A stretch of 64,000 bases of DNA from IMG/VR virus record IMGVR_UViG_3300009151_004315, positions 1 through 64,000 of that record; one strand, written 5' to 3'. Of this stretch, positions 54,644 through 57,199 are shown one piece after another; the stretch's first letter is position 1, and every line of letters begins with the position of its first letter. This stretch comes from a virus. Both the position numbers and the translations under genes were made by a program. The notes under the pieces are model-generated. The model saw nothing but the letters and a program-made list of their open reading frames with translations. It ran no database searches and was not told where the DNA came from.

Positions 54644-54886
54644 CTATCTCCATCGTAACATAAAATGAATATAATCTTTCTCATCTGTGAATTTGAACGT
54701 AGTTTCAAATCCATCATCTTGTGTATCTTTATATTCATACGTCCACCTAGATTTTGTTCTACCAGGACCAAAAGTATCAACACACCAATCTAATGGATTA
54801 TTTTTATCTCTTATAGAACCGTCTGGTCCCATATAGTGTTTCCAATAATCCCAAGATAATAAAGCAATGTGTTGATATTTTTTCAT
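54644..54886 (-). CDS. Small unknown protein
   Basis: An 80-residue protein from the ATG at 54886 (MKKYQHIALLSWDYWKHYMGPDG), chosen for its ATGA overlap with queE; a GTG start nine bases upstream is less likely. The ending TFKFTDEKDYIHFMLRWR resembles the end of the 14287 protein. Function unknown. Confidence 0.6.
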   Translation of the reverse strand: MKKYQHIALLSWDYWKHYMGPDGSIRDKNNPLDWCVDTFGPGRTKSRWTYEYKDTQDDGFETTFKFTDEKDYIHFMLRWR

Positions 54887-55731
54887 GTGCCCCACTCGTT
54901 TTTGAAAAGAGGTACTTGAAGTCTATCACTGTACCGATAACCACGATTCATTGCTTCAATAGCAACATTCTTAGCATTTAAGTTATACAATGATTCTACA
55001 CCACCGCAAGGCATGAAGTATACAGGGCCTCTGAATCCACCATTACGAAATTCTAGTACAGCTTTGTCTGCTTCAATTGCATCTTCACTAGTAGCAATAA
55101 CAAACTTAAGATACACAAAGCCAATACTTTCATATTGACGAATGATGTTAGGACAAATTGCTTCACTCCACTTCTCGCCACTGATACTTAGTTTAGGACT
55201 AACACTAAATGTTAATGCATTCTTTTCTCTGTTAATCTTCCATTGTTGTAGATAGATTGATAGGTCTTGACTTAGTTCTTGTGTACCATTAGTTTCAAAA
55301 GTAATCTCTTTGAGACCTCTCATTTTTTCGTTTGAAAGTAATTCTGGATATGCTCTTTGCCATCCAAGAAGAGGTTCACCACCAGTGATAACAAGGTGCT
55401 CATCCATCCAGCGACCGTGAGGAAGGATAGTAAGAATAGAGTCAACAATAGAAACGGTACTGAGCATAGGACTAAGATGCTTAAATCTAGAGTCCCACGA
55501 GGCGTAGGAATCGCAACCTGTACTGACAAGCGGTAAGGATTTATAATCTGTATAATCTTGTGCTTTAATCGCAATAACATCTCTTTCACTACTCAATTCT
55601 CCTTTATTCATGCCGAAGCCACCACACGTAAAATTGCATCCATATGTTCTAAGGAAAATACTTGGTACTCCGATATATCGGCCTTCTCCTTGTATACTAT
55701 AAAAAAGTTCACTTACTTTTATGCTTGTCAT
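54883..55731 (-). CDS. queE: 7-carboxy-7-deazaguanine synthase QueE (radical SAM), phage form with insert
   Basis: A 282-residue radical-SAM enzyme. Recognised: VSELFYSIQGEGRYIGVPSIF (CPH4/SAM entry), cluster cysteines C32 and C36 in GCNFTCGGFG, and a third Cys (C73) in STGCDSYASW after an insert of about 34 residues. VITGGEPLLG and ITFETNGTQ follow. It makes CDG from CPH4 in the preQ0 pathway, with FolE and QueD encoded nearby. The wide gap between the second and third Cys departs from the usual close CxxxCxxC spacing. The first ~17 codons encode the same peptide as a stump at 56320-56373, with different codons. The start lies inside the HNH gene end. Confidence 0.9.
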   Translation of the reverse strand: MTSIKVSELFYSIQGEGRYIGVPSIFLRTYGCNFTCGGFGMNKGELSSERDVIAIKAQDYTDYKSLPLVSTGCDSYASWDSRFKHLSPMLSTVSIVDSILTILPHGRWMDEHLVITGGEPLLGWQRAYPELLSNEKMRGLKEITFETNGTQELSQDLSIYLQQWKINREKNALTFSVSPKLSISGEKWSEAICPNIIRQYESIGFVYLKFVIATSEDAIEADKAVLEFRNGGFRGPVYFMPCGGVESLYNLNAKNVAIEAMNRGYRYSDRLQVPLFKNEWGT

Positions 55732-56272
55732 TAATATGTTCTTTCAAATCATTCATTGATATATAGAGTTTTTCACAAATGAAGCCCTCTTTCTTTCGTT
55801 TACTATCGGATAAGCACCATCCCCTAATAGTTGTCTCATGTACATCGTAATATTTAGCCGCATGCCCCATTGAAGGGAATATACCATCAGGCGTAGTCAC
55901 CATCATTTTCCAATTAGGTCTATCATTGTGAATTATACGTTCAATTGAATCTAAAACTGCAGGTACCTTATAGTCTCTTTTTAAGTATTCTACTGCATTT
56001 AACAGATTTTGTAAATCATCTTGGAACTTCCCGAGAGCCATATTACAGTTGGTGCAAAGTAAACCTCTTACTTTTTTTGTAACATGACAATGATCCACTG
56101 CTAAATCCCTATTACATATATCAAGTTTATTACAAATCGCACAGCCATGATTTTGTTCTACCAACATTGCTTCGTACTGGTCGGCATTAATTCCAAAATC
56201 TTTCATCAAATCTGACCTTTTTCGGCGTTTGTTAGTTCGTTCTTTACTATTGAGTGTTTTTTGCTTAATCAT
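55709..56272 (-). CDS. HNH/endonuclease-VII-type homing endonuclease inserted at queE
   Basis: A 187-residue protein. A basic N-terminus (NKRRKRSDLMKDFG) is followed by an endonuclease VII-type core: YEAMLVEQNHGCAICNK, LAVDHCHVTKKVRGLLCTNCNMALGKF, with zinc cysteines and catalytic D-H. Residues ~125-165 (VTTPDGIFPSMGHAAKYYDVHETTIRGWC) form a NUMOD-type helix-turn-helix used by homing endonucleases to bind their site. Its stop lies 23 nt inside the present queE start. Upstream, after a late-type box, lies a stump of the original queE start. This is the pattern of a free-standing homing endonuclease that entered queE. Confidence 0.9.
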   Translation of the reverse strand: MIKQKTLNSKERTNKRRKRSDLMKDFGINADQYEAMLVEQNHGCAICNKLDICNRDLAVDHCHVTKKVRGLLCTNCNMALGKFQDDLQNLLNAVEYLKRDYKVPAVLDSIERIIHNDRPNWKMMVTTPDGIFPSMGHAAKYYDVHETTIRGWCLSDSKRKKEGFICEKLYISMNDLKEHINDKHKSK

Positions 56273-56289
56273 TATTATCTCCTTATATG

Positions 56290-56297
56290 TATTTATA
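56290..56297 (-). promoter_or_regulatory. T4-like late promoter box, exact TATAAATA, for the HNH gene
   Basis: TATAAATA on the minus strand, followed 9 nt later by AAGGAG and the ATG at 56272. The promoter came with, or was formed by, the insertion. Confidence 0.6.
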
Positions 56298-56319
56298 CAA
56301 GGTGACGGTAGAGTAAGAT

Positions 56320-56373
56320 TTAACCCTCTCCTTGGATGCTATAAAATAATTCTGATACTTTTAAATGATTCAT
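56320..56373 (-). pseudogene. Stump of the original queE 5' end
   Basis: ATG plus 16 codons and a stop encode MNHLKVSELFYSIQGEG, the same KVSELFYSIQGEG that begins the intact queE. Six of those 13 codons differ, all silently. The ATG overlaps the stop of the 56370 gene (ATGA), as expected for the native queE position in the operon. The insertion point is therefore after the GEG codon. Confidence 0.88.
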
Positions 56374-56588
56374 TTGATTTTTAAATTGTAATTTTTTAAA
56401 ATAACTTCAGCGTATGTACCGCCACCTTGTTTATAAACACCATTAACTTGCTTTGCACAATCCCTGATTAATAGTTCAGCAAACTTTTCAATACTTTCTT
56501 CATCATCAGTTTGACCTGCGACAGATGCTCGTTTGAGCGCCCAGTCAAAACCTGCTTCTTTTGCCAGGTCTTCTATTTTTTTATTCAT
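56370..56588 (-). CDS. FAELIV-family small protein
   Basis: A 72-residue paralogue (KKIEDLAKEAGFDWALKRASVAGQ, SIEKFAELLIRDCAKQVNGVYKQGGGTYAEVILKNYNLKIK). It shares the F-A-E-L-(I/L)-x-x-C helix with four other small proteins in the window. Its stop overlaps the queE stump. Function unknown. Confidence 0.68.
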   Translation of the reverse strand: MNKKIEDLAKEAGFDWALKRASVAGQTDDEESIEKFAELLIRDCAKQVNGVYKQGGGTYAEVILKNYNLKIK

Positions 56589-56591
56589 ATA

Positions 56592-56783
56592 TTACCAATG
56601 ATGTAAAGTGTTTGCTATGATGAAACAACATGTTATCACATGTAGCACCACCCAGAAAGTTTTTAGGAACAATGCGATTTTTGCTTCACCTAATGTAAGA
56701 ATAGGTACATCAGGCCTGTCATCATCGGTATTACCCATTAGATGACCGGTTGCTCTTGCCCATATTTTTTCTAAGCTATTCAT
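56592..56783 (-). CDS. Small membrane protein
   Basis: A 63-residue protein with a soluble N-terminus (NSLEKIWARATGHLMGNTDDDRPDVPILTLGEAK) and one C-terminal membrane helix (FLKTFWVVLHVITCCFIIANTL). It shares one base with the psiE-like gene. Function unknown. Confidence 0.62.
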   Translation of the reverse strand: MNSLEKIWARATGHLMGNTDDDRPDVPILTLGEAKIALFLKTFWVVLHVITCCFIIANTLHHW

Positions 56784-57199
56784 TAAGCTACCTCGTCTTT
56801 ATTGTTGTTAGGATATTTTGCACTAGTATATCTAATAACTAATACGCTTATTGCGATAACAAATGTAGAGCCGGCTACAGCTAACATTTCAATAACATTG
56901 ATTGGCTGATGACTCATTATATCTACCATATGCCGTGTCAGTGCTGTTATTGCAATGTATAGCAGGAACCTGACAGGCATATGATTGGTCTTGAAATAAA
57001 TGCCCACCATTGCACCTATTTCCAAATAGATAAACATTAATAACAAGTCACCGACTGTTGCGTGATGTTTTTGAAACATTTCAGCGAAGGTCCAACCGGC
57101 AGCCCATACTGTTGCGGCACCGATACCAAACAATGCAAGCCTATGAAATATGTCTACTAAGGTATGTCCTACCTTATCTACCATTTCTGTTTTCAACAT
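56783..57199 (-). CDS. PsiE-family membrane protein (phosphate-starvation-inducible E)
   Basis: A 138-residue protein with four membrane helices. The PsiE signature DLLLMFIYLEIGAMVGIYFKTNHMPVRFLLYIAITALTRHMVD lies in the middle, and the helices run near residues 20-40, 48-68, 78-95 and 104-125. PsiE is made by bacteria under phosphate limitation; its activity is unknown. Phages in low-phosphate waters often carry pho-regulon genes. It shares one base with queD and another with the next gene. The role here is inferred from the family only. Confidence 0.88.
   Translation of the reverse strand: MLKTEMVDKVGHTLVDIFHRLALFGIGAATVWAAGWTFAEMFQKHHATVGDLLLMFIYLEIGAMVGIYFKTNHMPVRFLLYIAITALTRHMVDIMSHQPINVIEMLAVAGSTFVIAISVLVIRYTSAKYPNNNKDEVA

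Follow-up and report, generated by a model that had tools for sequence, protein, structure and literature searches.

Mobile endonuclease genes that occupy conserved coding sequences are known in several forms. In fungal mitochondria, mobile ORFs at atp6, atp9, cox2, and nad3 of Glomus sp. and at atp6 of Allomyces macrogynus combine a LAGLIDADG or GIY-YIG endonuclease with a divergent duplicate of the 3' end of a gene, and the native end is left as debris (PMC3630166). In T4-type phages, mobE lies within nrdA of Aeh1 and mobA lies within gene 60, and both halves of these split genes are used as separate polypeptides (PMC2988022). F-CphI from cyanophage S-PM2 is a free-standing enzyme with the DHHRN motif of the endonuclease VII (Endo VII) type. 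It spares the target gene of its own phage because a group I intron in psbA acts as a shield, an arrangement called "collaborative homing" (PMC6083498). Engineered home-and-rescue and cleave-and-rescue drives carry a nuclease along with a re-coded copy of the gene that is cut (PMC7968924; PMC7951863); in the HomeR drive, the nuclease is Cas9, the hosts are insects, and the 3' end is re-coded (PMC7968924).

In this study, we analyzed a locus in a 64,000-nucleotide stretch of DNA (hereafter, the window), which belongs to a virus record of 78.3 kb. Its features are as follows.

56370..56588, minus strand: 72-aa gene upstream of the stump, no Pfam match
56320..56373, minus strand: stump consisting of resident queE codons 1-17 and TAA, which marks the insertion point and differs from the uninterrupted alleles L012 and L013 at 3 of 51 nt
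56277..56306, minus strand: possible hairpin over the Shine-Dalgarno sequence before the endonuclease start, containing TATAAATA at 56290-56297
55709..56272, minus strand: homing endonuclease of the Endo VII (DHHRN) type, 187 aa; its C-terminal part, approximately residues 117-181, is conserved
55709..55731, minus strand: last codons of the endonuclease within the replacement queE start, 23-nt overlap
55648..55731, minus strand: recoded replacement queE 5' end, nt 1 to approximately 84, which appears to travel with the endonuclease
54883..55731, minus strand: full-length queE-like gene, 282 aa, with the resident body from approximately nt 85

The order on the minus strand is thus the 72-aa gene, stump, endonuclease, and queE. 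The stump is an ATG followed by 16 codons, encodes MNHLKVSELFYSIQGEG, and ends with TAA. Its ATG overlaps the stop codon of the 72-aa gene, and 47 nt separate its own stop codon from the start of the endonuclease gene. The new queE start, inside which the endonuclease gene stops, again encodes KVSELFYSIQGEG; six of the 13 codons differ from those of the stump, all silently (9 of 39 nt). A preliminary description of the locus had reported the stump, the overlap of its ATG, the six silently different codons, and the endonuclease stop inside the new queE start, and all were confirmed. It had also described queE as split. This term calls for caution, because a full-length queE persists downstream: the resident gene has lost its start, and the cassette supplies a new one. 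The queE product belongs to the radical SAM, 7-carboxy-7-deazaguanine synthase family, as indicated by a sub-threshold match to Pfam Radical_SAM and tblastn matches to phage queE genes. The window also encodes a PsiE-family membrane protein (56783-57199, minus strand; Pfam PF06146, E 3.7e-22) between a queD-like gene and queE. From the sequence comparisons described below, we consider it probable that the endonuclease and the recoded first 27 or so codons of its target form a natural homing cassette of a "recoded rescue" kind.

The element works like the fungal mobile ORFs, in which an endonuclease is likewise accompanied by a divergent duplicate of a gene end, but it is not filed among them because the gene end and the enzyme class differ. 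Here, the 5' end is duplicated, the enzyme is of the Endo VII type, the carriers are phages, and the stop codon of the nuclease gene overlaps the start of the new gene (compare PMC3630166). The endonuclease is free-standing and has the Endo VII motif, as in F-CphI; in contrast to the intron shield of that system, no Rfam family was matched at E <= 1, and the shield would be the recoding itself. The location within a conserved phage gene resembles that of mobE and mobA, whereas one full-length gene and a 17-codon stump are found here instead of two functional halves. The pairing of a nuclease with a re-coded copy of its target recalls the engineered drives, except that the present element is natural, protein-guided, found in phages, and recoded at the 5' end. 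A search of open-access PMC, covering titles and the beginnings of abstracts, found no phage case with the stump, endonuclease, and recoded-start layout among the entries listed. Three other known arrangements were considered and rejected: a group I intron, on account of the 47-nt spacing, the duplicated queE start, and the lack of an Rfam match at the above threshold; an intein, as the endonuclease has its own start and stop codons and the stump closes with TAA; and a split gene of the Aeh1 nrdA/mobE type, in which both fragments are needed, as the downstream queE is full length.

The endonuclease matched Pfam Endonuclease_7 (E 6.6e-22), and its PHROG matches were all annotated as "endonuclease VII". 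The preliminary description had named it an HNH homing endonuclease; the enzyme is of the Endo VII/DHHRN type and not a canonical HNH. Residues C44/C47, D60, H61, H63, R69, C73/C76, and N77 are invariant in 15 aligned homologs and constitute the DHHRN motif (CX2-4C, D-H-x-H, R, CX2C-N) as defined in PMC6083498. A C-terminal part of approximately 65 residues is also conserved in the homologs. The dN/dS ratio was 0.036-0.131 in seven of nine pairs, and dS was saturated in the other two. The endonuclease is therefore maintained under purifying selection. An AlphaFold model had a mean pLDDT of 81 and a pTM of 0.56, and a structure search of the PDB with this model gave nothing at E <= 0.001, the best match being a weak one to Hpy99I (E 0.08, prob 0.91). 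The predicted model and this match are consistent with the Endo VII type but not decisive. In the 524.6-kb relative described below, there is no Endo VII copy besides the one adjacent to queE.

Sites without the endonuclease were found among queE loci. Our search yielded 60 loci with a queE relative, 56 of which included the start of the gene (L048, L055, L059, and L060 have no queE start and were omitted). The endonuclease is present in four of these 56 loci (L001, L002, L028, and L047) and is thus an optional gene at one site; in the others, other sequence directly precedes the queE start. In L006, L007, L008, L012, L013, L018, and L046, among others, an uninterrupted queE comes immediately after a homolog of the upstream gene; this queE begins with the start seen in the stump and continues through the GEG codons, as the preliminary description had predicted for relatives lacking the endonuclease. 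Scans starting from the endonuclease gave no endonuclease-less queE record among the matches listed (the best 80 of 523 confirmed stretches in one scan). A pattern search of genome contigs gave 44 pattern matches and no confirmed relative, and a search with the pattern of the 5' border gave five records, none beyond those already known.

A comparison of 40 distinct alleles indicated that queE in the window is a mosaic. In the body of the gene (nt 88-400), the nearest nuclease-less alleles are L006 for the window (21 differences in 313 nt), L029 for L028 (29 in 313), and L043 for L047 (18 in 313). In the 5' tract (nt 10-81), the window, L028, and L047 differ from these same alleles at 20, 22, and 21 of 72 nt, whereas they differ from one another at only 1, 3, and 4 of 72 nt. 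Between the tract and the nearest-body allele, 12-13 silent and three conservative changes were counted over codons 4-28. The window and L047, which account for the single tract difference, have zero differences from nt 9 to nt 80 and many thereafter. The new 5' end therefore comes from a lineage other than that of the gene body, an origin that had been put forward for checking in the preliminary description. For comparison, the median tract distance was 0.194 in 378 control pairs of nuclease-less alleles whose body distance was 0.13-0.22; the tract distance was <= 0.014 in none of them and <= 0.056 in seven, including two between hybrid alleles (see below), compared with 0.014, 0.042, and 0.056 in the trio. 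The mean tract distance from the window to 28 non-hybrid nuclease-less alleles was 0.303, and that among the 28 was 0.170 (the seven hybrids L022, L032, L033, L037, L038, L040, and L049 were omitted). Because the tract is nearly identical in three phages whose queE bodies all differ, the endonuclease and the recoded start have evidently been transferred as a unit into different queE genes. The sequence comparison thus gives good support to the view that the endonuclease and the first 80 or so nucleotides of queE behave as one cassette. Mantel correlations over the whole family (r 0.68 between nuclease and tract, and 0.73 between nuclease and body) do not discriminate. At this depth, the nuclease follows the body of queE no less than it follows the tract, and the argument for a cassette is therefore based on the close trio.

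The same layout is present at other genes. We surveyed 85 Endo VII loci after omitting the duplicates L066 and L082-L084, with one scan contributing the best 80 of 523 confirmed stretches. L127 and L131, which have short flanks, were omitted from stump scoring. The ungapped protein match between the stump and the new start scores 71 in L061, which has the same sequence as the window. In a control, 1000 re-paired upstream and downstream flanks of other Endo VII loci scored 53 at most, with 29 as the median; the match is thus better than expected by chance. An earlier control of 300 pairs had reached 80, most likely due to two related terL loci in its pool, which were omitted from the 1000-pair control. 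Three of the 68 other Endo VII loci with sufficient flanks exceeded the control maximum, two at terL and one at thyX. The enzymes of the terL loci (L116 and L104) are identical at 155 of 177 aa and occur in two different upstream contexts. Their stumps differ from uninterrupted terL alleles at 1 and 4 of 48 nt and from their own replacement starts at 11 and 13 of 48 nt, respectively. This comparison involved 79 nuclease-less loci, several of which have little upstream DNA, and the absence of an endonuclease applies to that DNA only. Two nuclease-less terL alleles, L173 and L197, differ from the L116 replacement start at 1 and 2 of 48 nt, respectively, and are possible hybrids, similar to those at queE.

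The thyX locus, L144, is the sole enzyme-bearing locus among 79 thyX loci. Its stump is a 62-codon ORF, the first 50 or so codons of which match resident thyX (82-85% identity to L303 over 120 nt). Identity between the replacement and resident alleles is 55-70% in the first 180 nt and mostly 73-97% thereafter; it drops to 42% in one 60-nt bin past the replaced part, which counts against our interpretation. Among the 12 named-phage regions scored, one contained a stump, that of pncB in the Leptolyngbya boryana phage Lbo-JY46 (L331). The stump MSFKINSLYLADGYKK ends in a stop codon; the enzyme gene comes next and shares its last 11 nt with the start MSFKINSLYWVDGYKT. The stump and replacement start differ at 14 of 45 nt and at only 2 of 15 residues. 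No empty-site relative was found for this locus, and the evidence for this case is the stump/replacement pair. Another named-phage region, L338 (score 50), was not counted because the match contains a stop codon. By eye, the terL, thyX, and pncB enzymes differ from the queE enzymes in having a cysteine-rich N-terminus ahead of the nuclease domain, and the layout may therefore have arisen more than once.

Related overlaps were seen in two further named phages. In Synechococcus phage S-CREM2 (L092, 2336-2821), an Endo VII gene overlaps the start of a gp47-like exonuclease gene by 20 nt, with no stump. In Rhodococcus phage Weasels2 (L340, 975-1508), an HNH gene of another kind shares 11 nt with the start of a nicotinamide phosphoribosyltransferase gene, and no stump was seen by eye; the blastn matches in Grayson and Peregrin span 76% of the Weasels2 query and fall into two pieces, which is compatible with these phages lacking the HNH gene.

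We infer a homing pathway, including cleavage, the cut site, the repair route, immunity, and the role of the stump, from these sequences. The nuclease would cut uninterrupted queE near codons 15-20 in a co-infecting phage. Repair would then copy the cassette in, with pairing at the upstream gene or stump on the left and at queE beyond approximately nt 84 on the right. The resident start would remain upstream as the stump, closed by a stop codon, and may serve as the left homology arm for an incoming break. The cassette would supply a new start, with its ATG inside the last codons of the nuclease gene, leaving the encoded QueE protein whole. Because this start restores continuous coding across the insertion point, protection must come from nucleotide differences, if the enzyme recognizes this region. 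The recoded start is probably no longer cut and would thereby protect the element from its own nuclease. Silent recoding has been shown to block another phage enzyme, the HNH enzyme PhiPA3 gp210, with 17 silent changes (PMC11620839). The differences between the stump and the new start should also hinder recombination between them, which would delete the nuclease gene.

Alternatively, the element could be an ordinary free-standing homing endonuclease with plain co-conversion, the divergent 5' end being passive baggage from another lineage with no protective role. Co-conversion of flanks is standard in T4 homing (PMC2988022), and the thyX replacement looks foreign at the protein level too; however, the intact replacement start restores the insertion-point sequence, and without divergence the element would cut itself. 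As the divergence between stump and replacement is also found again at four genes, we consider passive co-conversion unlikely.

Some nuclease-less queE alleles bear traces of the recoded tract. Judged from 14 diagnostic sites, five of 35 (L022, L032, L037, L038, and L049) are recoded in the 3' part of the tract and mostly resident in its 5' part, and three more hybrids (L073, L077, and L080) were found by pattern. The hybrids occur in several genomic contexts. An AGT serine codon and similar recoded codons are also present in the nuclease-less L027 and L073. These alleles look like products of nuclease loss or short-cut repair, with ordinary recombination as the alternative. They might form by recombination between stump and replacement or by repair limited to the queE side of the donor, and they should resist the endonuclease. 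In engineered drives, recombination between re-coded and wild-type copies similarly yields resistant alleles (PMC7968924). With regard to the wider family, we see an even chance that several Endo VII lineages reached the same design, namely, to cut a conserved 5' end (queE, terL, thyX, or pncB), to bring along a recoded 5' end, which rescues the gene while preventing self-cutting and short-cut repair, to keep the stump as a homology arm, and to leave resistant nuclease-less hybrids when lost.

The endonuclease adjoins queE in 15 loci of the survey. Seven of them (L061, L081, L085, L093, L095, L096, and L097) have an intact stump and replacement, with enzyme identity down to 58-59%. The stump is decayed in L062 and L094 and probably also in L063-L065, where perhaps ten bases are left, and no stump was found in L098, L099, and L100. 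The enzyme gene stops inside the queE start, with an overlap of 14-23 nt in the window and the compared loci and of a single base in L100, whereas L099 has no such overlap; the L085 endonuclease ORF is without the usual stop codon and reads on into queE, and its computed overlap of 26 nt is not its true end. In Rhizobium phage RHph_I1_18 (L091), a full-length relative of the enzyme (38-41% identity) lies just upstream of queE, again with no stump. The layout is therefore not obligatory. The queE gene of this phage (L091, 2950-3902) seems to be annotated with a late start, as the FFTIQGEG frame opens upstream toward the Endo VII gene, with no obvious ATG. The decay or loss of the stump in these relatives, and its identity with the sequence of the resident target gene, make it very improbable that the stump has no link to homing and is instead a short gene maintained in its own right or a leader peptide with a role in translational coupling or regulation, even though its start overlaps the upstream stop codon and the stop codon of the thyX stump overlaps the nuclease start. 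The preliminary description had raised a separate conserved short gene, together with an assembly artefact, as possible objections to its reading. A tandem duplication of the queE start upon insertion, followed by drift of one copy, would explain why the same 17 codons are found on either side of the nuclease gene, but it is hardly credible, given that the stump resembles resident alleles and the new start resembles other nuclease-bearing phages, and not each other. Although the records are metagenomic, an assembly artefact or strain mixture can practically be dismissed, since L001 (26.8 kb) and L002 (524.6 kb) have queE and endonuclease genes 100% identical to those of the window and also contain the stump, which makes a single faulty assembly unlikely, and since other genes, including one in the named phage Lbo-JY46, provide independent cases.

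A late promoter and a ribosome-site hairpin before an endonuclease gene resemble the control of I-TevI. The sequence [CT]ATAAATA, which is similar to the T4 late promoter, is present within 60 nt upstream of 13 of the 15 queE-adjacent enzymes and of none of the four terL, thyX, and pncB enzymes, against a background of eight in 74 window ORFs of at least 100 aa and six in 341 ORFs in L001-L060. TATAAATA itself is not enriched in the window (five in 64 kb) and occurs once in three portal-gene loci. The hairpin at 56277-56306 has a z score of -1.19, 24 of 200 shuffles fold as well, and the alignment contains no consensus pairs. A T4-type late promoter with a hairpin was thus set aside as a feature of the element, being missing at terL, thyX, and pncB, with a weak hairpin. 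T4-type portal genes are present in three of five related records (524.6, 352.0, and 348.7 kb). Together with the occurrence of the locus in records of 26.8, 524.6, and 78.3 kb, this suggests that the carriers are very large T4-related phages.

These elements also affect annotation. A gene phylogeny that includes the replacement tract is misleading, and annotation overlooks or absorbs the stumps, e.g., at queE of RHph_I1_18 with its late start. Free-standing homing endonucleases in coding sequences must neither break the target gene nor cut their own chromosome. One short cassette appears to solve both problems by a recoded gene start, a principle later built into synthetic home-and-rescue drives. 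If this is true, the element would be a natural counterpart of these drives, with resistance alleles visible in wild populations, and the wild stumps, full cassettes, decayed stumps, and hybrids would be a natural record of its spread, resistance, and loss.
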